Assembly (NCBI GenBank): GCA_963281255.1
Contig: OY725493.1
Location: forward strand, 2,511,857-2,575,856
Length of the DNA stretch: 64,000 nucleotides
Direction: 5' to 3'
Origin: Aphrocallistes beatrix
Lineage: Eukaryota; Porifera; Hexactinellida; Sceptrulophora; Aphrocallistidae
The first letter of the stretch is position 1; every line of letters starts with the position of its first letter. Position numbers and translations under genes: made by a program. Below the pieces are notes generated by a model. It saw nothing but the letters and a program-made list of their open reading frames with translations. It did no database searches and had not been told where the DNA came from. This document shows positions 3,540 through 63,577 of this stretch, one piece after another.

Positions 3540-6430
3540 TCAGTTGGAAGGATCGTCTTCCTGTGTCATTTGATCTTCCGGAATTTGAGACCACGGGATA
3601 AAGTTCGAATACTTTTTTAGCTTGTGCCTCCTCCCATAACGGGAGTAAGTAATCTCTGTATCTGCTTCAGGTGGAGTTGGATCTTGATCTTCACCGCTCT
3701 TCTCGTCTAGCTCCTCTCCGGAATTATCTTCGATAGGCTCCGGTTCCTCGTTTACCTTCCCATCTGTCGTAACTGGGTTTCTAGTTTGCGCAAGCCAACT
3801 CTCATTCCTTTCCAATCTCTTACAACGAATCGTGTGGTATCACTTTCTTCCTCCCGGCCTGTCTAACTGGACGTTTGCTCCTCGTTGTCCTGTTACGCGG
3901 TAGGGTCCCTCAAACTTCGTTGCCAATTAGTCGTAGTTGCTTCTTCACCCTTTCGAGTAGCACCATATCTCCTAGGGCGACCCTTGTATCTCTCTTGCCT
4001 CTATAAAGTTAAAAAGTTCAAGTTTATAGATTTATATACCCCCCGAATCCATGCTAATATGTTCTCAGGGAAATTTAAGTAGTATCTAGTACGTATGTGC
4101 CTAGAATAAGTTAGTGAATAGTAACTTGGTTTTGTCCTATCAAAACTGATTTCTAAACCAGGCAAAACTGGTCAATTCTAACTACGGGCATGCTTGAATA
4201 TTAAGAAAACGTAGAAAACTTGTTAAGATACGCTATTATGTTTTTCGATTTAAATCAGCTCGTAATATTTGGGTAAAAGGGTGAGATAACACGCTACTTC
4301 ATGGAGGGGCAGGTGGGATTTTAGTAATGGCCGCCCTCCCATGGCCAAGGCATGGAGGGGCGATGGCCCCTGTCCACCCTATTCTACGCCTATGGCGGTA
4401 ATAATTGATGCTCTCAAGGAACCTCTGTATCTCCCGTACTGAATGAGGCCGCGGAAACCGACGCAATTTTTCTTTACTTGTCTCTAGGGGCCTTCTTCCC
4501 TCCTCGCTAATTCGATGTCCCAGAAAGTTTACCTCTTTGTAGGCAAAGTGGCACTTGTCTGCTCTGAGCTGAATGTTTGCTTGTCTCAGCCTCTCCAGGT
4601 CTGCCTCAAGATCCCTCACGCGGCCTTCAAAAGTTATAGTTATAGAATAAATAAGACAGTCATCCACGAATGACTGTACGTGCTCGAGCCCTTGGAGGGT
4701 TTTGTCCATGAGCCTTTGAAATGTTGCCTGCGAGTTACATAATCCAAAAGGCATTACAGTCATTTCAAACTACCCTCTAGGTATATGGAATGCCGTTTTA
4801 TCCACGTCTTCCTCGTGCATAGGTACGCACCAGTATGCGCTCGCTAGTCGCTACGTCCAGTGATGTAAAGTATCTTGAGCCCTTCAATTTGTCCAGGATA
4901 GTTTGGATGTCGGGGAGCGAGTAGGCGTCCTTTTTCGTAACATCATTTAGCTTCCTGAAGTCAATTGCGAAGCGGAGTGCCGTCCCGCTTCCATACCAAG
5001 ACAACGTTGCTAGCCCAAGGCGATTTCGAGGGCCTGCAGATTCCATTCGCTAGTATCTCTTGAACTTGGACTTCGATTTCTCTCTCACATCCAGGAGGGG
5101 GAATTTTCGAGGTCGTACCTTGATGGGTGCCGCCTTGCCTGTGTCAATGCATGGCCTACTTAATATAGCCGTATATTAAGTAGGCCATGGTCAATGTAAT
5201 GCTTTTCAGTATTGCTGCGCTCCGGTTTCTTAGGATTGGTTGCGAATCTATCCGATAATTCCTTACATATTTCCTCCATTTCCGTGTATTTCTCTCTACT
5301 CAGACCAGTGCCAATGTCGAATCCAAATGAAATCTGTGCTACTGATTCCAATTTCTTCTCTTTCACAGCGGTCTGAGTTCGAAATAGTGGGTCGCCTCCC
5401 GCTGCGGTTGAGTATATCTCAATCCAATTTTCTCCCAGCCTGATTCTACCTCGATCCCAGTCAAATAGGACGCTGTCGAAATTGCAACCTAGCGACTTGA
5501 GGCTTTTCATCTCCTACTTGTATGGGGATCTCGATGCTGCCTTCACCTGTACTGGTGATTTGCAGAGCCCATAAACTCGGCCAGATTCCTTTCTGATCTC
5601 TTCTTCAAGACCAGTGGCGGCGCCAGGGGGGGCACCAATTTCCGACAGGAATACATGCGTCATTCATTTGTCCATGCCTTCGCACTATTTTACTAGGCTT
5701 CTATTATATCGATAAACAGGTTTCTCTAATTCAATAGTGTACACCAATATTTAAGTGTAATAAAAGAACAGTAAGTGTAAGAAAATAACATAATATGTGT
5801 ATATATATATATGTACTATATACCTATTAGTTCTCATTGGCGGGTAATCTGTACCCAAAAAATGTTGGTGCCCCACTGGAAATGATTTGTGCCCCCAAGG
5901 TGTCCCCCCAGTGGCGGCGTCCTGGCGCTGCCTCTGTTCCAGACCCTACCTCTTCACGGTGCCAAGATCAATCACTGAGGGTTTGGCCCCGCTATCCAAA
6001 AGGGCGGTCAACTCCTGTCCTGCGATTCTTAGTTGTAGCGTCATGCAATCTTCGCTTGTCCTATGCATTCCGTTCCTGCTTTTTTGATCTGCTACCGAGA
6101 ATATTCTGTTACCTTCATTTGCCTTGCGATTCCTTGGGTCCGGATTAGTTTTAAACCTCCGCTGCGAACACATCTCAGGGTCATGTCCCTGACCTTTATA
6201 TACAAGGCACACGCGCTATGGGCATGACCGATAGCTATGTCCCCATCTCTTACAATGGTAGCACTCAAACTTCCTCTCTCGACCCCTAAACGGACCGCGG
6301 TTACTGTTTCCTCTTCCTGACCAGCGGTACGTAAATACCGGCTGTACTCTGTCCTGTGCCTCTACGTGTTCGTTTTCCTCAGCTTCCTTAAGGGCTTGGT
6401 CGTCGGTGCTCTTCTCAACCAGGGCCATTT
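3540..6430 (-). mobile_element. Decayed Ty3/gypsy-like LTR retroelement, internal remnant
   Basis: Read on the minus strand, the fragments fall in gag-pol order. A CCHC zinc knuckle of the nucleocapsid is at about 6216-6290. An aspartic-protease motif (LLDSGA) is at about 5970-6000. Reverse-transcriptase blocks follow, with an FRKLNDVTKKDAY-type motif at 4880-4970 and a FVDD catalytic box near 4665. An integrase C-terminal, GDMVLL-like segment is at about 3885-3990, followed by an acidic tail (3540-3815). Frames are broken by several shifts. RNase H and the integrase core are missing between about 3990 and 4299, and I could not find LTRs. A MITE sits at 5612-5936. The copy is defective; the family call rests on motif order. 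Confidence 0.75.
5612..5936. mobile_element. hAT-type MITE inside the gypsy remnant
   Basis: The left end CAGTGGCGGCGCCAGG matches the complement of the right end (CAGAGGCAGCGCCAGG) at 13 of 16 bases. The flanks are TTCAAGAC (5604-5611) and TTCCAGAC (5937-5944), an 8-bp duplication with one mismatch. A second end of this family (GCCGCCACTG) lies at about 6581-6590. Confidence 0.6.
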
Positions 6431-6840
6431 TTTTTTTATTTTAGTTATGTGACTTTAGTAATATATTGTTCCTGTTTCTTTCACAAAATTTCACTTAATC
6501 TCATATAACATAGTACTAAAATCACAAATTTCGTAAATATAAACCTATAAATCCTGGGCCCCCTGCGCCTCCTCTAACGCCGCCACTGGGTGTAAGATTC
6601 TATCATTGTACCCAAGAGGGCTCTAGCTACAGTGTAGCCTGCTTATAATCCGATATTCCCTGCTACGTTAATATAGTTCCGGATTGCTAACTTGTTTGAT
6701 TATATGAAGTCACAATTAAACATTAGCCAATGGGTAATTGTAAAAAAACGAAACATGTAAGAATAATTATAGCCTTCCATACAGAATATAGTGCCGTCGG
6801 ATTTGGTCAATTCTACTCTACTTCGAGGTATTAAAAAGTG

Positions 6841-6875
6841 CTATGCGCATGCGCATAAAGCTTGTGCGCATGCGC
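6841..6875. promoter_or_regulatory. Paired GCGCATGCGC palindromes in transposon terminus
   Basis: Two copies of TGCGCATGCGCA occur in tandem, separated by a short AAGCTTG-containing spacer, about 245 bp upstream of the transposase ATG. This matches the known NRF-1 binding consensus. A single copy lies at the other terminus (about 12180-12193), about 130 bp upstream of the second gene's ATG. A promoter or transposase-binding role is inferred. Confidence 0.5.
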
Positions 6876-7118
6876 ATATGGGATTATGATTATGACATAA
6901 AATCGATTAGTAATGTAACTTGTTTTGCGGTTTAAATGTGGTTTGTACATAGTAAATTAATAAATCCCATGTTGAATTCCTTTAACATAAGACAGTTGTT
7001 AGTATCTACTTTAGTAGTAAATAAATAAGACATTTGTATAGTATTTAGAAGTAAAGATCAATTGAATATCTAATAAAACCCCGTGAATACATTTAATCTT
7101 AAAACTTATTGATTTGTA

Positions 7119-10111
7119 ATGGCTGAAGACAGTGAATTATCGCATGTAGGAGTGTCTTATAAGGCAAAAAAGAGAAAACTTTTCGAAGATGAAGTAATTT
7201 CTACTAGTATTCATCTTGATGATATGCATTTCTCTGATTGCTGTCTAGATAACGATAAAGTTAATACATATGATATCCCTATATGTGTTATTTCAGATGC
7301 AGGTTGGTTCTGTGTATTTTGAACAATTAATTTTGTTAATATATAATTTAAATTACCATTCGTTTTCAATTATTCAATAAATACTCTTTAAGTTATTGAA
7401 TCGTAATACCATATTGTGAACAATACTCTGTTGGTAATTTTTGTGACATTTTTTTCAGAAACTACATCTGCAGATTTGAACGAAGCTCATGACAACGAAT
7501 TAGAAACTATTCAAATGCCAATCATTGATCAGTATTTAATCATTCTAATTCAAGAGAGAAAAGTTTGGCGTCTTGAGGATAGCAGCCTTGGTTTAATCAC
7601 TGACTATCATATAGAAAGAGGTAACCATATTTAATTTATTTTTAACATTTGACGCAAGTCGAAAGTATTTCATCTTCCTTTTAACGATTTATAGGAAAAA
7701 TTGTGCTGAAGAGGAAGCTAATCGTTATTGATTGTCTAAATCGAATTTGCTTAAATTGTGATGATCGGGATTGCATGCACAATCAAGCTTATGTTCAATG
7801 TTTGGACCTGGGTCTGGAAGCATGCACTTCATGTAGACTGCAAGACACCACCTATTTCATTATAAATAAGAAAATTATTTTTCTTACCAATAAAGACAGT
7901 TACCATTGTTACCTTAATCAAGGACAAAGCTGGATTTGCGAAACTTGTACTTTTAAATGCATTCATAAATATAAGATCACTGATATCATAGGAGAGAATG
8001 AACTATTAATCGATTCGCCTTCAACCAAGTTTAAAAGTTCCGATTTTTCAACAATATCTACACAGTCTATTCCCCTCAATCTTGATAAACCCCTTGCTTC
8101 TATCTATAATAAGCAGCTCTCTCACGGTATATCCCTTCCAAATCATTTATTGCCAGAATGCGAAATCTGTGAAAATGGCTATACATTCAATTTATACGAC
8201 CAGCATTTAAAACTAGAAAAAACAGGAATCGTAGTTTATACAGAAAACGATATAATTGAATTGAATGAACATAAAGGTAATTAGTTAATATAATTAATCT
8301 AAGCAACATTGGTTATTATTTATCATATACGTATATGTGTAGTGTTCTCTTCAAAGTGTAACGGATCGTGCAACTGTAAAGCTGTATTCGAAGGGAAGAA
8401 GTATTTACTATTAAATATAAATAATCATTATTTTATTCACTATGACCTGTTATTCGAATACAGTGAACTGATGTGTCAATCTAGAAACCCTCTACATAGC
8501 TTTTTAAGGTACGCATGAGGTTTTTCATAAGTATTTTTAATACAATTTAATATATCAAATCTATAAATCTAGGGCAAAGAATCGGAAAATGCAAAGGTTG
8601 GGAAGAAGCGCAGAGTATCGCTATCACATATTAAGACACGGCTGGAACGCCTATCTTAGATTGGTTGGTATAGATTATCATTCTAACTTCACTTGTCCCT
8701 CCTGTAAAGACACGCCAGATGTAATTATTCTAGATGGAGTAGCAATGGGAACATCTAGGGATATTCCTGAAACCTTATTCAAAGTAGATAAGACTCAACA
8801 TTATCCTCTAGTAAAATTTTCTGAACGTACATTCATCTCAGATTCTGCATTGAGAAAAGAACTTTTCGAATATTGTAAAGTGGGCCTAAGTGAGAGTAAA
8901 TATAATAAGATGGTAAAATCCATATCGATTCCAGAGTTTTCAGAATATATTCAATCTAGCTCTGTTAAAAATGACAATAAAGTATCAATAAATCCAGATT
9001 ATCCAAATGCTCGAAAAATTATAGAATATCTGAATCATGCGGAACCGATTACAGGAATTCTCCAATTTTCGATTCTCAACAAAGATGAATTGCAATTGGT
9101 AGTTCAACTAACCAATGGAAAAGCAGTTAAAAAAAGTAACTTGCAACCAATATATAAAAAAATGTATATTTTAGAATTACTGTTTACGTCTCTGGATGTT
9201 AACAGTAATTCTAAAATAAACCCGGATTTTTTTACTTTGAACCCTCTCATATCATGTTTATTGAAGTTTATTATTCAAAAAATAAATTCACTATACAAGA
9301 GACCAAGTCGTAAACCTGTCGAAATTGTGCCTAATAATGAAGATTACTTCAACTATTTTCCAGCCTTCAGAAAGAACTATATGTGAGTTGATACATTAGT
9401 TAGCAATTATTTAATGATAGAAGTGATACAGTACCCAAAATTTCACCTGGTTACCCGGTGGCTCTATTAAGCGAAGTTAAATTATTATGAATATAATGCT
9501 AATAGAGAAATCATCTTCCTTTATATAGGCTACCTCACTACGACAATTGCGAGTTGGATTCTCAAGCAAGATGTACTAAACTATATCCAAAGCACCATAA
9601 CCTGTCACCGGGACTCTTAGTTATATCGTGCAAACACAGAATTTGCTATGGTTTTCAGATAATGAGACAAAGAGAATCTACAATTTTAGTTTACAAAACA
9701 CTAATAACATTATTTCAACATCAACCTCGATTCATAGTATATGACAACGCCTGTAATCTCCATAATACATGTATGATCAGGTATAATTTACTTTAAAAAA
9801 ATAACTTGTACTATTAAAAATACTGCACTAATTTGTGTGTGTTTGTTTCTAGAGATCCCAAGTTGTTTCGAGATACTTGTTTTCTTATCGATCGTTTCCA
9901 TTCAACTAACCACACCTGTAATCCATCATACAAGATGAAGTTCATTAAGACTGAAGAGATACTGAAAATAAATTCGCAAATATGTGAACAACTTTTTTCA
10001 ATTCTAAGGAGACTATCAACCCAGATTACTTTTATGAGCGTAGAGAATGTATATTATAATACAAGATATTTCCTTGCTTGTTGTAATGAAAGAGTGAGAT
10101 TACAGTTATAA
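7119..10111 (+). CDS. KDZ (Kyakuja-Dileera-Zisupton) superfamily transposase, seven exons, apparently intact
   Basis: Exons 7119-7302, 7459-7620, 7695-8276, 8343-8508, 8573-9382, 9529-9780 and 9853-10111 all have GT-AG borders. They join in phase to an uninterrupted frame of about 804 codons. The N-terminus is basic (KKRK). Exons 3-4 carry several CxxC pairs, probably zinc-binding. Exon 5 opens the catalytic core with CPSC and a D in ILDGVAMG. Exon 6 has PGLLVISCKH and VYDNACNLH (second D). Exon 7 has FLIDRFHSTNHTC and INSQICEQ (candidate E). These match the KDZ RNase H-fold signature as I recall it. The transposase would cut and move this element, and the intact frame suggests recent activity. 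The weakest points are exon 1 and exon 4, which rest on splice phase alone. Confidence 0.85.
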
Positions 10112-10177
10112 AAATTAGTCTAAAGATACATTTTCATATATTTATTTATTCTATTTATTAACTGACAATACATAATG

Positions 10178-12053
10178 CTAAACTTTAGTTGACTTACAGA
10201 GCGAACAAATAAATATTGATACACTTTCGTTTGTATCTGCTAAACCAACACATGGTTTGTGAAACCATGATAGGCATCGGTGGCATTCAACCATATAATT
10301 AAATGTAAATGATGGTAATTTACATATGCAAGACAAAGGTATTTTTAATTCAGTTTCGAGATTTGTGCTGATCTTCAAACGTGTTTGTTTCTTTTCTACC
10401 GTAGGAAAAGGGGTAATCCATTCCAATTGGAAGCATCTGGTCAAATGGTCACGCATGCTTTGCTGCCGCCACCTTAATGTAGTAGGGTCTTGGCCTACAG
10501 CCAATGCCGTGCATACGGCAGCTGCAAAAAGACCGCAGTCGCTGACACCCCTTTGTTTCTGTATAGACATTACAGATACTTTGAGAGTTAGAATCTCCGG
10601 AATTATAGAGTAAAGCCAGTTGTACATCTATCTCTTGATTTGTACCACGAACAAAAAGTGAGTCATATAAGTAGACTTTTCCATCATGATCAATTCTGGA
10701 GGCTAACCAGTGAAGACTCCCATCGTGATGTATCTGAAAGCTGTCTAGTTTAGCCCTCACGAAATGTCGCCCCTAAATGATGTACAATTTGTCTCATTTT
10801 TGATAATTTTTAAATCACAATGAAAAAAGTTCGTCTAAGGCACACATTTTCAACTTGGCTCAAGAACCGGCCCTGAAATGAGATAGTTCAACAAAATTTC
10901 GAGTCCTAATATATAAAATTGTACCTTTGATAGAATGGTATCCTGCAAGCCTTGAACTTGTGGGTAATTGTTTTTGAGTAGATCCTATATCAAAATAAAG
11001 GATTTGTGAAAGTAAAGAAAAGTTACATTGCCTTTGATATAATTAATACTTACGCAAAATGCATTGATGGTTATATCTGAAAGAAGTGTATGTGGGTTTG
11101 ATAGCTCAAGTAGACATTTCTCTCTTAGGCCTTCATTTAGAATTGTGATAGGAAGAGGAAATATAGGTTTAGCATTTGATAATACTGCCAATGACTTTGA
11201 TTTATTCGAGTTTGATTGTTGACAAGAATTCGCAACGATCGAATTGTTTTGCGGGTGCATGAAATCAACCGCAGGTTCAATTCCGTGAAAAAATGAATCG
11301 CTAGAGGTATCTACATCTTTATTAGGTTTCGAGGCCGAGGATTCATCAAAGAAAAGGTTTGAAAAATTATTTGCATCGGGTTTTAATAAACCAATTACAT
11401 CATTATTAGGATCAATAGAGCATTCATTCAAAGGAACTATTTCTGTGGTTTTATTCTCACCTAAAGAATGATGCGGGGATCTATCTCGAAATGAGGTTTC
11501 TGATTCTTTGAAATTTGGATAACTTGGATCATTTCTGTAAGCATTAAGAATCTTTTCTAATATACATTTTTTAAAATTCTTTTTGGTTACGTTCCGAAAT
11601 GGTACTTCCTCAGGCCACCAAACAGGCTTGATTTTATCATTTGACCAAAAATTTCGACCTACTCCTAAAAAAACAACTATCCTAACAAGGTGTGCAACAT
11701 ATCATTAGAATCAATCAAAGTAATAATAACCAACCTGTAGTTTTTTGAGTTATCCATGAGATAATTCTTCTCAGGGTCGAGACGTTGTAACTTGCCCTAT
11801 GATCTTCTATCATCGAGATAATTTCCTGTTCGTGTGCAGGTTTGGAAGTATTATTTGAATCAGGATAGGCAATATTCCTCCACATCTCGTCCTTATTTTC
11901 CATAACAAAATTTTTGAATTTTGAGGTACCCATAATTGAAAGCCCCCCTTCCCATGTGAAAACCACCCCGTAAGATTGTCCTGTGACAGATTTAAAACGT
12001 TCCAAGGTTCGAGATAAGTGTGCCTTTGCATTCGCCTTAGTCATTGCAGACAT
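10178..12053 (-). CDS. Transposon-borne Ulp1/SENP-type cysteine protease with PHD finger, one frameshift
   Basis: Minus-strand exons: 12053-11735, 11664-11054, 10984-10925 and 10772-10178. The first three joins are in phase. Exon 1 (ATG at 12053) holds a small domain (VVFTWEGGLSIMG) that recurs in the copy at 59.4-60.5 kb. Exon 2 has KPVWWPEEVPFRNV then a low-complexity Ser/Asn region. Exon 4 has the C48 protease core: His in LHWLAS, Asp in YLYDSL, and Gln then Cys in QKQRGVSDCGLF. A PHD finger follows (CIC...CHRCLSWFHKPC...CSLC). A frame change near 10615, between the Asp and Cys boxes, breaks the reading frame unless a small intron or base error is involved. Ulp1-like genes are known passengers of several DNA transposon families. 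Confidence 0.75.
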
Positions 12054-12433
12054 CTTGAGAGAGGACAAGTATATTAGAATATATAAATAAATTAAACGAA
12101 ATCTGAAGCTTTTCAGGTATAAATAATGAATGCTCATTCAAATTTTGTATGTTCATTCACACCTCCGTGAAAACATCAATATGCGCATGCGCATAGCACT
12201 TTTTAATTCATGGTACTTCACTTTCCTTTTAAATCCATCCCACCGTAGCTGCGCATCCTTAGCAAATAATTATATTCAACACATTTAGTAGTTACACGAC
12301 AACATCCAACCTGAAACAAACAACTAGACTTTGTGACTGGAATACGACTGGAAATATTGCTAAACCTATCATGAATTCCAAATTTGAAATCTACATCCAA
12401 CCAGGTAAAATCACCATAAAAGCCTAGAAAGGA

Positions 12434-13471: not shown

Positions 13472-15836
13472 CAGTGGTTCCCAAACTGGGGGGAATTCCC
13501 CCCTGGGGGGGGAATTTGATCATTTTGAGGGGGGGAATGATATGATTAAGAAATCTCAAAACTAAATTTCTAAATATTATATTGTATGATCATCCACTCA
13601 CTCGAAAATAGTACAATGCGACCAATGCAGACTTAGAGTCGTGATTTATTTCCTATTAAGATTTCAAATCGTAGTTTCAGAAATAAGATCACAAATTATT
13701 CATTTCACAGCTATGATTAAAGTTAAATATCAATTTCACAATCAACGACAACTACAGAACTAACCAGAAACCTATTATGTTATTGTGATTAAGATCATGC
13801 CATTTCAAGGATTCGCCAAACCAAAAACAATATACATTGAAGGCACTATATATACAATGCTTACCCACAGGATGAAATTATAACAAAATTATTTAACTAT
13901 GGCTATGGCAGCAAAGAAACGAAAGTATAATGACAACTACCTGGTACTGGGATTTACAAGCATCACAATTGGAGGAATACAAAAGCCACAATGCGTGATT
14001 TGCCATAAAGTGCTGACAGCTGATAGCATGAGGCCTAATAAACTTAAGGCGCATTTGGAGAGTGTTCATCCAACATATGTACACAAAGATCCCAGGTCCC
14101 TTCAGCACTTAGAACGCTCTCTTAAAGCTGCACGTTTTGATTCAACAGGAAGATTTCAACAGCAAAATGAGGCTGCGTTGGCAGCATCCTATGAAATTTC
14201 CCAAACGATTGCCAAGGCAAAGAAACCTCACACCATTGGTGAAACTCTCATAGCCCCGTGTGTGGAAATTATTGTCAAAAGGATGCTAGGAGAAGATCAT
14301 TCAAAGAAAGTAGCTCAGGTGTCATTATCAAATACTACAATCCAACGGCGTATATTGCATCTTGACGAGGATATCGAAGATCAAGTTGTTGCAGCCATTA
14401 ATAAAAGCCCAGTATTCGCGATCCAACTCGATGAATCTACAGATGTTGAATCCCTTTCCCAGCTTATCTCATATGTTCGATATATTGATCATGACAATAT
14501 GAAGACGGAATTCCTATTCTGCAAACCACTGAAAACTACTGCAAGAGCTGACGACATTTTCGACATCATTAATATCTACTTTCAATCTCATAATATTGAT
14601 TGGAAGAAATTAGTTTTCTGCACTACAGATGGAGCCCCAGCTATGATGGGGAAGAAGACAGGAGTCATTACCCGTGCTAAAAATATGTCACCAGACATGA
14701 TTGGAAATCATTGCTGGCTTCACAGACAAGTTTTATCATCGAAAGCAATGCCGGAAGAACTGTCAGCAGTCTTCAATAAAGTCACTGAAACGATTAACGC
14801 CATAAAATCAAGTGCAACTAACTCTCGTCTTTTTACCCAACTGTGTCAAGATAATGAAGCTGAGTATGAAAGGCTTTTATATTTTACTGCAGTCAGATGG
14901 TTGTCACGAGGTAAAGCAGTTCTGCGTGTGTTCGAGTTTAGATCCGAAATAGCAGATTTCCTTGACTACAAGGGTCATCGTCTGGGCTATTGCTTCAAAG
15001 ATAGTGATTTCGTCGCCAAAGTTGCATATCTTACAGACATTTTCTCAGCTTTAAATACTATTAACAAGTCACTTCAAGGGAGAAACATTACAATGTTTGA
15101 GGTCAGTGATAAGCTGATTGCATTCTTTGAAAAATTGAAACTATGGCAAAGAAGAGTGGATCGTGGACAGCTAGAACATTTTCAACATCTTCAACACTAT
15201 CTTGAATCAGAAAAACTGGAGTGTACCTTTAGATATCTGATCTCAGAGCACATTGAAATACTAAAAACACACTTAATTATTTTGAATTATTTTGATGATG
15301 ACTTCGAGATGTTCAAAATTAAGCAGTGGGTTCAATTTCCGTTTGTTCAATCCACAGCAGACCACATCGATGATGATCAGTTCAGTTTGAAAGAAGAATA
15401 TATTTCACTGCGAGCTGATTCCTCTCTAAAGATAGAATTTGATCAAGTCCCACTAGCAGAGTTTTGGATCGCACGTTTAGGTGAATATCCTCTCCTTGCG
15501 AAAGAAGCAGTAAAACTACTGGTGGGTTTTCCAACGTCTTGGGAGTGTGAGGTTGCCAAATGAGTGTCATCAAAACTAAGAATAGGAACAGGTTAAATGT
15601 GGAGCCAGATATTCGAGTTGCGCTTAGTTCAACTTCACCAAGAATTGACTACATAGTGAAGAACAAAATCAAACAAGCACATCCATCTCATTAGCAATAT
15701 TATTAATTAACATACAAACAACTAATTTAATATTATATTTATTCAGTCAATTTACAATGTCTTTTGAGATGGGGGGGATACTCTATTAAACATTGCAAAA
15801 GGGGGGGAATCATTCTAAAAAGTTTGGGAACCACTG
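13472..15836 (+). mobile_element. hAT DNA transposon with 8-bp target duplication
   Basis: The ends are CAGTGGTTCCCAAACT on both sides (16-bp terminal inverted repeat). They are flanked by GTATAGAT at 13464-13471 and 15837-15844, a perfect 8-bp duplication. The only gene is the ZBED-type transposase at 13899. The total length is 2365 bp. Confidence 0.97.
13899..15693 (+). pseudogene. hAT transposase (ZBED5/FAM200-like), C-terminal frameshift
   Basis: A single open frame of 554 codons (13899-15563) starts at MAMAAKKRK. A BED zinc finger covers residues ~33-58 (CVICH...HLESVHP). The hAT catalytic core follows, with the first D in IQLDESTD (~177), the second D in TTDGAP (~240), the HCWLHR motif (~272) and VRWLSRG (~330). 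The frame stops just after ECEV. The next frame, from MSVIKTK at 15559, continues the expected dimerisation tail (NRLNVEPDIRVAL) and stops near 15693. A small indel therefore removes the last ~45 residues from the frame. This tail is needed for hAT dimers, so the copy is probably inactive, although it is otherwise intact and young. Confidence 0.93.
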
Positions 15837-52560: not shown

Positions 52561-53829
52561 CAATTGACGAGCTATTAAAATCGACGAGGCGCATGCGCTT
52601 CACCGACGAGGCGCATGCGCCTGAGATTTTAATGCTATTCGAGAATTAATAGGCTTTTCTTTTTTCTTATTCTAACATTAATTCTTATTCTAACATTTAC
52701 TATTATAATTTATAGAATTGTATTATTAATGGCAGAAGGTGCTTCTCCTGCTTCTTCATTCTTTGAAGTGGAAACGTAAAATTGATTATCCCGAGGCTAA
52801 ATTATCAACACAGATACAGCCTATAAATTTTCCAATCAATACTGCTACGTCTTTAAACAAGAAAAGTGTAATACAAGTTAATAATTCATTTGATGAAGTC
52901 AACTCGGTCAAAGGTAATTAGTACTGATCGAGCAATGACATATCATTCACAGATGATCTAACAGAGATATTAGAATTGGCCACCAACAGGGTTGGTCACC
53001 AACAGGGCACCCCTGGGTAAAATTAAGGTTTAAACCGGGTTGGGTAAAACCCCATTTTTGTGGGTTAAACCTCATTATTATAAGCGAATCAACTTTATCA
53101 GGTCATATCCATTTCAGCATAACCAAGAGAATCAATATTCTGTCAATATCTAATTAACAATGTTGTTACTACCATAATAATTGGAATTCTTAAAAATCTT
53201 AGAATAAATAGGAATTCATAGAATTTATCATTATTTCAGATGTTTCTACGAAAAATAACTATAATGCCTGACTATTTAATGAGGGCTTTTCTATACAGCA
53301 ACCTAGGTTGTTACCAGTGTATCTTTTAAGGATTTTTTAAAAAATTTTTGTTCTTTTTTAGGATTAAAAAAATATATTATATTGGGATTTTTATTAATAT
53401 ACGTAAATTCAAAAATTTGAAACGTTATTGTACTCAAAGCCATCTGAAACTCCCAATATTGGTTAGGAATGTAAAATTTATCATACTTCGAACACAATCA
53501 TGTAATAATACGCTAATATGAAATATCCAACCATTTCTTAGTCATATATAAAAAATCTATATTATAATCTAAATTCCAGAAAAAAAAAATCAGAAATAAA
53601 AAACTTTTAGAAGTAAGAAAAAAAATGCTTAAAAGATAGCCTGGTTGCTACATTGAACACCTCGAGCAACCTAGATTGCTAGAAATGTGCTAGCAACCTA
53701 GGTTACTCGGTGCTTAGTATGTAGCAGCCTATGAGAAATAGTATTACCGCTTTTATTCATAGATTAATATTATTATTAATAGGCAATGCCGTTATTTTAT
53801 TTCATTAAATTTTCTTCTTACTTTAAGGT

Positions 53830-54330
53830 TAATAATAATAATACGTCATAATTTACAATTATTCCATTCTGACATGATTCCTTGATGATTTGTTCAAGTG
53901 TGCTGTACAATGAATTAAGAAGTGCATGTGTGCAGCATGTATATTATATATACAGTATATGTGTAAGTCTGTGTGCGCGTATATATGTATAAATTCATGT
54001 ACAGTATTATTAAATTCGTTTCATGGGCTAATCGGAAAAGATGAGTTTTCAAGATACGTACTTCTAAAGATAGTAATGGATTGAGCATTCCGATGTAGGC
54101 AGGCAAGTTATTCCATTCAACAGGAGCAGCAAAATAAAAAGAGCGATCAAGTTTTTTGAAGAATTAATGTATGGATGTTCGAGGAGGATAGCATTCGAAG
54201 ATCTTAGATTACGGTTGGACTTTTACTTGATAAACTGGGTGATGTAGTATAGAGGAGCAAGAGGATGAACAGCTTTATAAATGATGAGGATTCTAAATGT
54301 GATGCGATGTTTTCATATACTATCAGCGCC
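53830..54330 (-). mobile_element. LINE (CR1/L2-like) 3' fragment
   Basis: Reads the RT C-terminal tail on the minus strand (FRILIIYKAVHPL, then AAPVEWNNLPAYIG-like sequence across frames). It ends in a TATTATTATTATTAACC tail at about 53830. Confidence 0.65.
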
Positions 54331-54599
54331 TCGTCGATTTTAATATATGTAAACATCATTTTATGCGCATGCGCGTAATTGTTGCACCTCAACAATTACG
54401 CACATAGACATAAAACAATAGGAACATATACACTACAAATGTCATTTTTTGCGAAATTAAATAAAATTTATTATATTCAACATTAGAGAAAATAGCAATA
54501 GCATATTTTCTAGCATTGATGAGTTCAAGGTCTCAATTACGTTAAATAATATAGCTATCACTGTCAGTGTTATAATCAAGGTTGAAACCGCTTCAACCA

Positions 54600-55040
54600 A
54601 ATACCAATTTAACCGAATAATGGTCAGACCAAATTATTTGGTTAACCGAATAATGGTCAAACCAAATAATTTGGTTAACCGAATATTTGGTTTACCGAAT
54701 AATTTGGTCAACCGAATAATTTGGTCAACCGAATATTTGGTCAACCAAATAATTTGCATTCTTTCCCAACACAATCACATGTTCTTACATGAGGTGGTCC
54801 GAACACAAATAAATCGAATAGGGCAACTTATATTTGATTATATTTTTGTATACATGTTTATATATTGAATATATAAACATTTATGCAAAAATATACTTTG
54901 TGATTGACCAAATATTCGGTTGACCAAATTATTTGGTTCTCAACCGAATACCAAATAATGATATTTGGTTACAAACCAAATATCAACTATTTGCAAATAT
55001 TATTTGGTTAAACCGAATAATCAACTATTCGGTTGCAACC
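54600..55040. repeat. AACCGAATAATTTGGT repeat cluster
   Basis: Many short direct and inverted copies of CCAAATAATTTGGTTAACCG lie at 54600-54760 and 54905-55030, around an AT-rich centre. Confidence 0.8.
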
Positions 55041-55229
55041 CTGGTTATAATACATTTCTTAAAACTGTCAACTCTTCATATAATTAATGATAGTCACGCA
55101 CTCAAGGACAGACATAGTACACAGTCCACGCTATAGGGACATGTGGGAGCTATAATCTCCCTGCACGCAGTTACCAAAGTCTAAATGTACTGCGCTCCTG
55201 AAGGTAGCTAATGACATCCTCTTCTACAT

Positions 55230-56215
55230 GAACCAAAACACGTAACATTTCTCGTCCTTTTGGATCTCAGCTATGCATTTGACACCGTTGACCATTCTAC
55301 CTTACACATTTCGGGATTTGTGACACTTCTCCCTCTTGGTTCAAATCATATCTCTCCGGCTGAAACCAATCCATTTCTATCCGTGGTTCAAATTCACTCG
55401 ACACTCCCGTTAAATACAGCATTCCCGTTCTCCTAAGGTTCCTGCCTTGGTACCCTTCTCTTCACTCTTTATACCAGCTCGATATCATTAAGTCTCATTT
55501 CCTCGCGACATGAACTGCTATGCCGATGATATTAAAATTTATCATTATTTTAAACCCAATTCTTTACTCTGAGAAATCTGCTCTCACTGTCATCCAATCC
55601 TGTGTCTCTAATCTCCGTTCTACTTGTAGGTTTCTTAACAACAAGCTGCTCATCAATTTCACCAAAACTGAGTTCCTCGTCATCGGTACCCGTCAACAAA
55701 TCTCAAATTTCCACATTGATAGCATTTCTGTTGGCAATTCTCTAATTTCGCCATCCAAAGAAGTAAAATTGGGTACCAGGTTCGACAACAACCTATTGAT
55801 GTCTTCCTAGATCCGTAAAGCTGTTTCTTCATGCTTCTATTTCATCTAGAATATCCATCGAATCAGGGAGTATCTCTCCAGCAAATGCATGCTAAACTAT
55901 CGTCAATCCCCTTGTACTAGTAACCTCTCTCTTTACAATAGTAACAGTCTTTTATATGGTTCTCCCTGGTTGCTCCTGTCTCGACTCCAACGTGTTGCAG
56001 CCAGGCTTATTCGCAACTCAAGAACTACTTCATCGTCTCTTCTTCTTATTAAATCTCTCTATGGCTGCCTGTAAAACATCGCACCACATTCAAAATCCTC
56101 ATCATTTATAAATATGTTCATTCTCTTAAAAAGTTTATAGAAGTTTCATTGTACAGCGCACTTGAACATATCAGCATGGAATAATTGTATATTATGACGT
56201 ATTATTATTATTAAC
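55230..56215 (+). mobile_element. LINE (CR1/L2-like) reverse-transcriptase fragment
   Basis: Plus-strand fragments include LLDLSYAFDTVDH, a YADD-like box near 55520, and LSRLQRVAARLIRN, in conserved RT order but with frameshifts. The copy ends in a TTATTATTATTAACC tail at 56215, the same tail as the minus-strand fragment at 53830. Confidence 0.75.
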
Positions 56216-57074
56216 CTTAAAGTAATACTATTTCTCATAGGCTGCTACATACTAAGCACCGAGTAACCTAGGTTACTAGCACATTTCTAGCAATCTAGTT
56301 TCTCGAGGTGTTCTGTGTAGCAACCTAGGTTGCTGTATAGAAAAGCCCTCATTAAATAGTCAGGCATTATAGTTATTTTTCGTAGAAACATCTGAAATAA
56401 TGATAAATTCTATGAATTCCTATTTATTCTAAGATTTTTAAGAATTCCAATTATTATGGTAGTAACAACATTGTTAATTAGATATTGACAGAATATTGAT
56501 TCTCTAGGTTATGTTGAAATGGATATGACCTGATAAAGTTGATTCGCTTATAATAATGAGGTTTAACCCACAAAAATGGGATTTTACCCAATCCGGTTTA
56601 AACCTTAATTTTACCCAGGGGTGCCCTGTTGGTGACCAACCCTGTTGGTGGCCAATTCTAATATCTCTGTTAGATCATCTGTGAATGATATGTCATTGCT
56701 CGATCAGTACTAATTACCTTTGACCGAGTTGACTTCATCAAATGAATTATTAACTTGTATTACACTTTTCTTGTTTAAAGACGTAGCAGTATTGATTGGA
56801 AAATGTATAGGCTGTATCTGTGTTGATAATTTAGCCTCGGGATAATCAATTTTACGTTTCCACTTCAAAGAATGAAGAAGCAGGAGAAGCACCTTCTGCC
56901 ATTAATAATACAATTCTATAAATTATAATAGTAAATGTTAGAATAAGAATTAAAGTTGTAGTATTTACAAAGAAAAGCCTATTAATTCTCGAATAGCATT
57001 AAAATCTCAGGCGCATGCGCCTCGTCGGTGAAGTGCATGCGCCTCGTCGATTTTAATATATGCAATTGACACAT

Positions 57075-62466: not shown

Positions 62467-63577
62467 AGTGAGCATGCTTCGCAATTTTCCCCTGATGATG
62501 TGTACAATGGAGACGAGACCGGTTTATTCTACAAGTGCCTCCCAGACAAGATGTTTTTAATGAAAGGAGAAACTTGCAACGGAGGAAAGCAAAGCAAGGA
62601 ACGATTAACCGTTCTTGTTGCAGTTAACATGTCAGGGAAGGAGAAGCTTCCGCTCCTAGTTATTGGAAAATATTTGAAACCTAGGTGTTTCAAAGGTGTC
62701 CAGACTATTCCAGTACAGTACGAAGCTAACAAAAAAGCTTGGATGCTGTCACATATCTTCACTTCGTGGCTTACCAAGTTGGACAAGAAATTTATGCAGG
62801 AAGGAAGAAAAGTAGCGATGATAGTTGATAACTGTCCATCCCATCCTAATATTCAATCACAACTCAACGCTACGAAATTAGTATTTTTGCCTCCTAATAC
62901 GACATCTACACTCCAACCATGTGAGCAGGGCATTATTCAAAATTTGAAGGTTCACTACAGGCATATGCTGCTGCAAAAAATGGTCTTCGCAGTCGATAAC
63001 AAGGAAAAATTTTCAGTTAATGTCCTAGAAGCCTTACGAATCTTGAAATCCGCATGGTGCAAAGTAACACCCCAAATGATTGCTAATTGCTTCCGGCATA
63101 CAGGCTTCTTAGTGCCTAATGTTGATGAGGAATTTGAGATTGAAGTCCGTGAAGGAGGTTCAGACAGTGGAATCCAGGAAGATGAAATTCTTAGAATACT
63201 ACCACAAGGGGTTACGTTCGCAGATTACCTCTCTGTGGATGATGGAATAATCCCTACAGGTGTTATGACAGATCATAGTATTCTATATACTAGTATATAG
63301 AATGCTATGGACAGATGATGACATAGTCGAAGCCTTCACCAATGCTGGTGGAGAGCCAACCTTAGATGAATTTGAAGAGGATGACACACCATTTCCACTT
63401 GAGGTACCAACCTCTTGTGAAGCTCTAAAAGCATTGAAATTAGTTCAGCGTTACTTCGAATCACAAAAGCATTCTGAGGATAGTCTTGACCTTGTTCGCC
63501 AATTAGAAGATAATTTAACTAGTCTTCTCATTGAGTCTAAAAGGCAGAGTAGTATTACCGACTTCTTTCCAGACTAG
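62467..63577 (+). pseudogene. Pogo/Tigger-type transposase remnant (DDE_1), N-terminus missing, interrupted
   Basis: The frame opens after a TAG at 62464 with SPDDVYNGDETGLFYK, the first catalytic D. KERLTVLVAVNMSGKEKLPLLV and the second acidic site (VDNCPSHP) follow, then STLQPCEQGIIQNLK, where pogo-type enzymes usually have D instead of E. The usual N-terminal helix-turn-helix and CENP-B domains (~170 residues) are absent. The frame stops at 63300 because of an insertion (63274-63309). The C-terminal part resumes at 63302-63577 (EALKALKLVQRYF) in the next frame. Without that insertion the frame would be open to the end. No terminal repeats were identified around it. Confidence 0.85.
63274..63309. 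mobile_element. 36-bp palindromic insertion with 7-bp target duplication
   Basis: CATAGTATTCTATATACTAG and its near-perfect complement lie head to head, flanked by GACAGAT at 63267-63273 and 63310-63316. Both the termini and the duplication length match the element at 1066-2639. Confidence 0.85.

Follow-up and report, generated by a model that had tools for sequence, protein, structure and literature searches.

NRF1-like accessory genes and putative NRF1-type sites in KDZ transposons of the glass sponge Aphrocallistes beatrix

The closest described relatives of the locus studied here are the Zisupton/KDZ transposons, for which target duplications of 8 bp are described (PMC12730594); for nematode Zisupton, no detectable target duplication is reported (PMC9297572). 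The terms ULP1, SUMO and PHD are absent from the main text of the former work, as are NRF1 and ULP1 from that of the latter. In En/Spm elements, TNPA reads the subterminal repeats and TNPD is the transposase, and between families the repeats and, probably, their readers diverge (PMC2613891). The PIF/Harbinger element Nuwa is a two-protein element with a Myb/SANT accessory protein (PMC12730594).

The other relevant system is the transcription factor NRF1. Human NRF1 binds GCGCATGCGC, its known consensus, as a dimer and has been crystallised on ATGCGCATGCGCAT; R206 recognises TpG within the half-site, N242 the G at its outer end and R244 the base pairs that follow, and binding is lowered about 4-fold by C4 to A and about 4-fold by G3 to A (PMC10810270). 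This mode of DNA binding was called novel, with no apparent evolutionary relation to the closest structural match, SRF (PMC10810270). The domain family, PF10491, appears in a survey of tunicate transcription factors with 0 to 3 such genes per species (PMC8122590). Among open-licence full texts, we have found no match for KDZ transposons together with NRF1, for Zisupton together with ULP1, for NRF1 together with a transposase and terminal inverted repeats or with a domesticated transposon, or for TGCGCATGCGCA together with transposition.

Here we have analysed a stretch of 64,000 nucleotides of Aphrocallistes beatrix, called the window below, together with the genome searched (100.5 Mb, 28 contigs). 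The window contains a KDZ element with two convergent genes. The original prediction for this DNA had overlooked both an NRF1-type domain in the second gene and the putative NRF1 sites in the terminal repeats.

Bounds, copies and neighbours of the element

The element and its flanks lie at the following window positions.

6825..12212, no strand assigned: whole KDZ element, 5388 bp, left tip GAGGTATT, right tip AATTCATG
6818..6824, plus strand: left flank CTACTTC, possible target duplication, 6 of 7 bases
12213..12219, plus strand: right flank GTACTTC

The perfect terminal inverted repeats of 28 bases that had been predicted are indeed present, identical over ATTAAAAAGTGCTATGCGCATGCGCATA. The element predicted at 6830-12207 is thus real, but its ends had to be moved outward to 6825 and 12212, since the conserved tips of other copies extend beyond the 28-bp repeat. 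Among same-family copies, the window included, the left tip is identical in all five left ends and the right tip in all four right ends. A 27-mer of the tip, with up to three mismatches, occurs 9 times in the 100.5 Mb and never as the reversed control, so this recurrence is not chance. We had also considered TTAA (piggyBac-like) and TA target sites, prompted by a TTAA that borders the 28-bp repeat; they were dropped because the copies show conserved tips reaching farther out.

A DNA search of the whole genome has revealed one other full copy, L040 on contig C2, which is 99% identical, a partial copy, L041, which is 97% identical, and two internally deleted copies, L042 and L043, of 736 and 915 bp. 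Inside the element, the window copy and L040 differ by 21 substitutions and 7 indels, and therefore the two copies diverged recently. The original prediction had argued for recent mobility and proposed a search for near-identical copies; these copies, the full one as well as the two deleted ones, support its argument.

The target duplication of the window copy is imperfect (6 of 7 bases), that of L040 is an exact 7 bp (CAAATTG on both sides), and none is present at the deleted copy L043. At L042 (contig C18), the flanking direct repeat is 16 bp rather than 7-8 bp. Exact 8-bp duplications are found at the relatives L071, L072 and L073 and at a fold-back element of the window. A search for an empty site of the window insertion returned no such site, the sole matches being the element's own two flanks.

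The fold-back element just mentioned occupies window positions 52569-57062. Its arms of 742 bp are 98% complementary, its tips are GAGCTATT and AATATATG, it carries GCGCATGCGC sites, and its exact 8-bp duplication is CAATTGAC. These features make it an apparent relative within this lineage, of the non-autonomous kind. All seven GCGCATGCGC sites of the window fall either in it or in the KDZ element. The relative L073 (C4:5306900-5313700) likewise has inverted arms, with a longest ungapped stretch of 257 nt at 94%, the tip GAGCTATT, three GCGCATGCGC sites per end and the exact 8-bp duplication CCTATTTG. No KDZ frame was seen inside L073, where the internal frames resemble remains of other transposons. 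Elsewhere in the window, translations inspected by eye show frames resembling transposon genes of hAT type (13884-15563), Gypsy type (4299-4769) and pogo/Tigger type (62467-63300). By such inspection, the neighbouring frames have an animal-like appearance.

The transposase and the accessory gene

The transposase gene is made up of seven exons.

7119..7302, plus strand: transposase exon 1
7459..7620, plus strand: transposase exon 2
7695..8276, plus strand: transposase exon 3, part of the CxC4 match
8343..8508, plus strand: transposase exon 4, part of the CxC4 match
8573..9382, plus strand: transposase exon 5, with an LDG motif
9529..9780, plus strand: transposase exon 6, part of the PF18758 match, with the motif YDNACNLH
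9853..10111, plus strand: transposase exon 7, part of the PF18758 match, with the motif INSQICEQLF and the stop codon

The intact seven-exon structure of the original prediction agrees with our analysis: all six junctions are GT-AG, and the joined exons are open in the window copy over 804 codons plus stop. Its assignment to KDZ has also been borne out, as the joined transposase matches PF18758 (KDZ) at 28.8 bits (cut-off 26.6, E 1.2e-6, profile positions 76-202 of 217) and PF18717 (CxC4) at 29.7 bits (cut-off 26.9, E 6.3e-7). The motifs DG, YDNACNL and SQxCEQ, which would form the catalytic acidic triad of the KDZ transposase, are present in the frames of relatives, too. The transposase of L040 shows two single-base length differences from the window copy.

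On the opposite strand, an accessory gene of four exons with GT-AG introns converges on the transposase gene.

11735..12053, minus strand: accessory exon 1, NRF1 dimerisation-like part and first DNA-binding helix (STLRR)
11054..11664, minus strand: accessory exon 2, remainder of the NRF1 DNA-binding domain (KPVWWPEEVPFRNV) and linker
10925..10984, minus strand: accessory exon 3
10178..10772, minus strand: accessory exon 4, C48/Ulp1-like protease (frame broken in the window copy) and PHD finger

From N to C terminus, the protein comprises an NRF1-type part, a C48/Ulp1-like protease and a PHD finger. In the window protein, the first of these parts matches PF10491 at 29.5 bits (cut-off 23.5), and the only PDB chains that it matches at E up to 10 are those of human NRF1, 8K4L (3.2e-7) and 8K3D (2.2e-6). 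We have also spliced the accessory gene from five more KDZ families (L071, L072, L074, L075 and L076). In all six, the first intron has the same phase-1 position, with a GC-AG border in L075, and all six match PF10491 at E up to 0.1 (best 6.7e-9). A joint profile of the six proteins aligns to residues 63-193 of 8K4L with an E of 1.1e-10, covering the dimerisation and DNA-binding regions. Judging from these matches, the N-terminal domain is homologous to NRF1.

For the C-terminal part, the Ulp1-PHD gene of the original prediction has stood as far as the domain calls are concerned, but not as an intact protease in this copy. The PHD finger of the window copy matches PF00628 at 26.4 bits (cut-off 24), and an open exon of L076 matches both Peptidase_C48 (PF02902, 24.1 bits, cut-off 20.7) and PHD (32.4 bits, cut-off 24). 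Allowing E up to 1, C48 is matched by four of the six aligned members and PHD by four; the rows of two members did not include the PHD part. In the PDB, the C-terminal profile matches PHD fingers (PHF2, BPTF and others) and, weakly, the Ulp1-like SUMO protease 6DG4 (4.9e-4). Protease and PHD share one frame in L071 and L076, not in L072 and L075, and no PHD was found in the accessory frame of L074. The protease exon of the window copy changes frame between its HW..D and Q..DCG halves. Because of this frame break, the window copy lends no support to the suggestion that the element encodes a deSUMOylase of its own. L040 is two bases longer at the break and open through it; its accessory gene has a stop codon where exon 2 ends, and Asn replaces Asp in the protease motif. 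Each of the two full copies thus carries different damage, and the accessory gene is interrupted in several relatives as well.

The comparison between families covered exon 5 of the transposase and three segments of the accessory gene; pS is 0.66-0.96 there, which is near saturation, pN is 0.17-0.52, and the protease is the most conserved of the parts compared. A pN below a near-saturated pS fits selection for function.

Palindromic sites and their linkage to KDZ genes

The terminal repeats of the window element contain ATGCGCATGCGCAT, i.e., the duplex of the NRF1-DNA crystal. The putative sites are as follows.

6845..6854, no strand assigned: putative NRF1-type site GCGCATGCGC, first at the left end
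6866..6875, no strand assigned: putative NRF1-type site GCGCATGCGC, second at the left end, 21 bp on
12183..12192, no strand assigned: putative NRF1-type site GCGCATGCGC, the single site at the right end

Across the genome, TGCGCATGCGCA occurs 125 times and its reversed pattern twice, and there are 144 pairs of GCGCATGCGC at 19-23 bp and none of the reversed pattern. The CATG core is constant across the KDZ families, and its flanks differ by family: beside the GCGC type of the window element there are arrays spaced at 22-24 bp with GAGC, GATC or ACAC flanks, and AAGC flanks occur in two elements without a KDZ match. Tandem pairs genome-wide amount to 1521 for GAGCATGCTC (GAGC flanks, L049 family), 129 for GATCATGATC (GATC flanks, L074 family) and 10 for AAGCATGCTT (AAGC flanks, L059 and L066), with 0 for the reversed pattern in each case. 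The CATG-core array of L076 is ACACATGTGT, with ACAC flanks. We have also observed inverted GAGCATGCTC arrays in very many small regions, such as C1:165350-165999 and C1:728356-728924, which are probably miniature derivatives.

In the 22 non-host loci with an NRF1-type domain, palindromic 10-mers centred on CATG form 54 pairs at 20-25 bp spacing, and the other 15 self-complementary cores form no tandem palindrome pair in the same loci. An array lies within about 1.5 kb, to one side or the other, in 14 of these loci; in the other eight none was found within that distance, and in two of them, the window and L058 (the same as L076), it is farther away. The anatomy of the tips is constant, with an 8-bp tip starting with GAG or CAT, a run such as AAAAAGT, and then the first palindrome. 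A scan that reports solely tips followed by a palindrome gave 22 tips at 16 of 19 loci (none at L055, L068 and L073 under the pattern used), and the first palindromic 8-mer has an offset of 21 in 21 tips and 22 in one; the tips are not independent, as 9 come from the window's own family and 5 from the GAGC family. For L074, L075 and L076, the visible tip is that on the NRF1-gene side only.

The convergent pair of KDZ and accessory genes is common to the six KDZ families that were read. Of the non-host PF10491 matches with E up to 1, 17 of 22 lie less than 5 kb from a KDZ match, and such 5-kb neighbourhoods cover no more than 0.57% of the genome. Seven of the 22 reach the family cut-off and 15 stay below it singly, because single exons alone are matched. 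With at least 52 KDZ clusters, grouped by eye from at least 123 matches (96 of 167 candidates scored), an array was found within 6.5 kb of at least 18 of the 52, and this is a lower bound, as most clusters, including most of the 34 with no array found within 6.5 kb, are only partly readable. The genome also has a host-like NRF1 gene (C1:8494049-8494699), which matches PF10491 at 167.7 bits (E 1.3e-47) and lies 2.26 Mb from the nearest KDZ cluster on the same contig. At L059 (C12:3693233) and L066 (C16:3101724), AAGCATGCTT arrays stand on both sides of an NRF1 gene with no KDZ match, and nine of the ten AAGCATGCTT pairs of the genome are located there. The absence of KDZ at these two loci is unproved, since the KDZ search scored 96 of 167 candidates; possibly, they are elements with the accessory gene alone. 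For viral contigs, 27 pattern matches to NRF1-type relatives were obtained, of which none was confirmed.

With regard to the reading residues, the equivalents of R206 and N242 are invariant in all six aligned families, in parallel with the invariant CATG core. From position 242 on, the residues are NVT in the window copy and L072 (both GCGC), where the R244 equivalent is T; NIK in L071 (GCGC) and in the host gene, where R206 and N242 likewise have their equivalents and position 244 is K; NVR in L074 (GATC) and L075 (GAGC); and NIY in L076 (ACAC), where N242 is kept though the outer base is A. In L059 and L066 (AAGC), they are DIS, i.e., N is replaced. Overall, the comparison suggests that reader residues and operator flanks change jointly. 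A simple residue-to-base code for the flanks is unsupported, since similar residues occur with different flanks; the window family would read a GCGC site identical to that of human NRF1 with T in place of R244.

Proposed mechanism and relation to known systems

We consider it probable that these elements are two-component KDZ transposons, whose ends are marked for the KDZ transposase by a dimer of NRF1 type, with reader and operator diverging in step. The KDZ transposase would cut and join. The dimer would sit on CATG palindromes about 21 bp from the tips, recurring at about 22 bp where they are in tandem, and the NRF1-type protein may mark and pair the ends for the transposase. With a fixed tip offset and a spacing of about two helical turns, dimers could stack along the same side of the helix and offer the tip to the transposase. 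The C48 protease and the PHD finger probably act on SUMO and chromatin at the element. Of all this, we observe the homologies, the paired genes, the site arrays with their constant distance from the tips and the flanks that change from family to family, and we infer that the accessory protein would bind the arrays and be required for transposition, and what its protease and PHD finger would do. CpG methylation blocks binding by NRF1. If this holds here, ends of the GCGC type would be sensitive to methylation, unlike GAGC or GATC sites.

The sites could alternatively serve to draw the host's NRF1, which would drive transcription of the element, the element's own protein being a competitor or secondary. 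The clear NRF1-like host gene with the equivalents of R206 and N242 and K at 244, and the identity of GCGCATGCGC with the known NRF1 consensus, are in accord with such recruitment. But in the GAGC, GATC, AAGC and ACAC families, the tip distance is kept, and the spacing nearly so, while bases whose change weakens human NRF1 binding have changed. Kept geometry with changed bases is easier to reconcile with an evolving reader encoded by the element than with a single host protein, and we regard host recruitment as unlikely. Less probable still is that the KDZ transposase itself binds the arrays as ordinary subterminal repeats, the NRF1-like domain being a by-stander with another target. Transposases of many superfamilies do bind their own ends, but the GCGC site equals the solved NRF1 operator, and AAGCATGCTT arrays flank the NRF1 gene at the two loci where no KDZ match was obtained among the 96 of 167 candidates scored. 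The array of L076, seen alone, could even pass for a minisatellite, and one may ask whether the palindromes with a CATG centre are just simple repeats that have nothing to do with the protein. Such an effect of chance or composition is highly improbable and already contradicted: the reversed controls are 0 for the four array patterns tested, other self-complementary cores give 0 in the NRF1-domain loci, and the first palindrome stands at a fixed offset from the tip.

If the two-component reading of the elements is true, KDZ joins the transposons with a separate end-binding protein, and it shows a transposon spreading operators for a transcription-factor fold across a genome. The reader/operator pairs of the families would be natural material for deciphering the recognition code of the NRF1 fold. 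A transposon lineage with an NRF1 domain beside matching site arrays is also a place to seek the origin of NRF1. More tentatively, and with considerable doubt on our side, NRF1 and its operator GCGCATGCGC may descend from, or still exchange with, an end-binding subunit of KDZ elements; reader and operator would jointly have given rise to at least five operator types, and the elements and their small derivatives would have scattered well over a thousand paired operators of this fold through the genome. The alternative is that such elements captured NRF1.

Compared with known systems, the elements resemble Zisupton/KDZ in the KDZ transposase with a cysteine cluster, the multi-exon gene and the terminal inverted repeats. 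Duplications of exactly 8 bp, as in Zisupton, are seen at L071, L072, L073 and the fold-back element of the window, and not at the window copy, L040, L042 or L043. The elements differ from Zisupton/KDZ by a second gene, which encodes an NRF1-type domain together with C48 and PHD, and by tip palindromes centred on CATG. The likeness to NRF1 lies in the dimerisation-like and DNA-binding regions, which align to 8K4L, and in the operator GCGCATGCGC, present in three families with an NRF1-type gene; here, however, the domain is transposon-encoded and fused to protease and PHD, R244 is replaced in the window copy, and the operator flanks vary in other families. With PIF/Harbinger (Nuwa) they share the two-protein organisation, whereas the accessory protein there is of Myb/SANT type instead of NRF1 type and the transposase is different. 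En/Spm (CACTA) elements likewise have a transposase and a separate DNA-binding protein for subterminal repeats, the binding being a prediction in our case. Unlike in En/Spm, the predicted reader here is of NRF1 type and directed to palindromes, and its sites are phased at about 22 bp from a fixed start.
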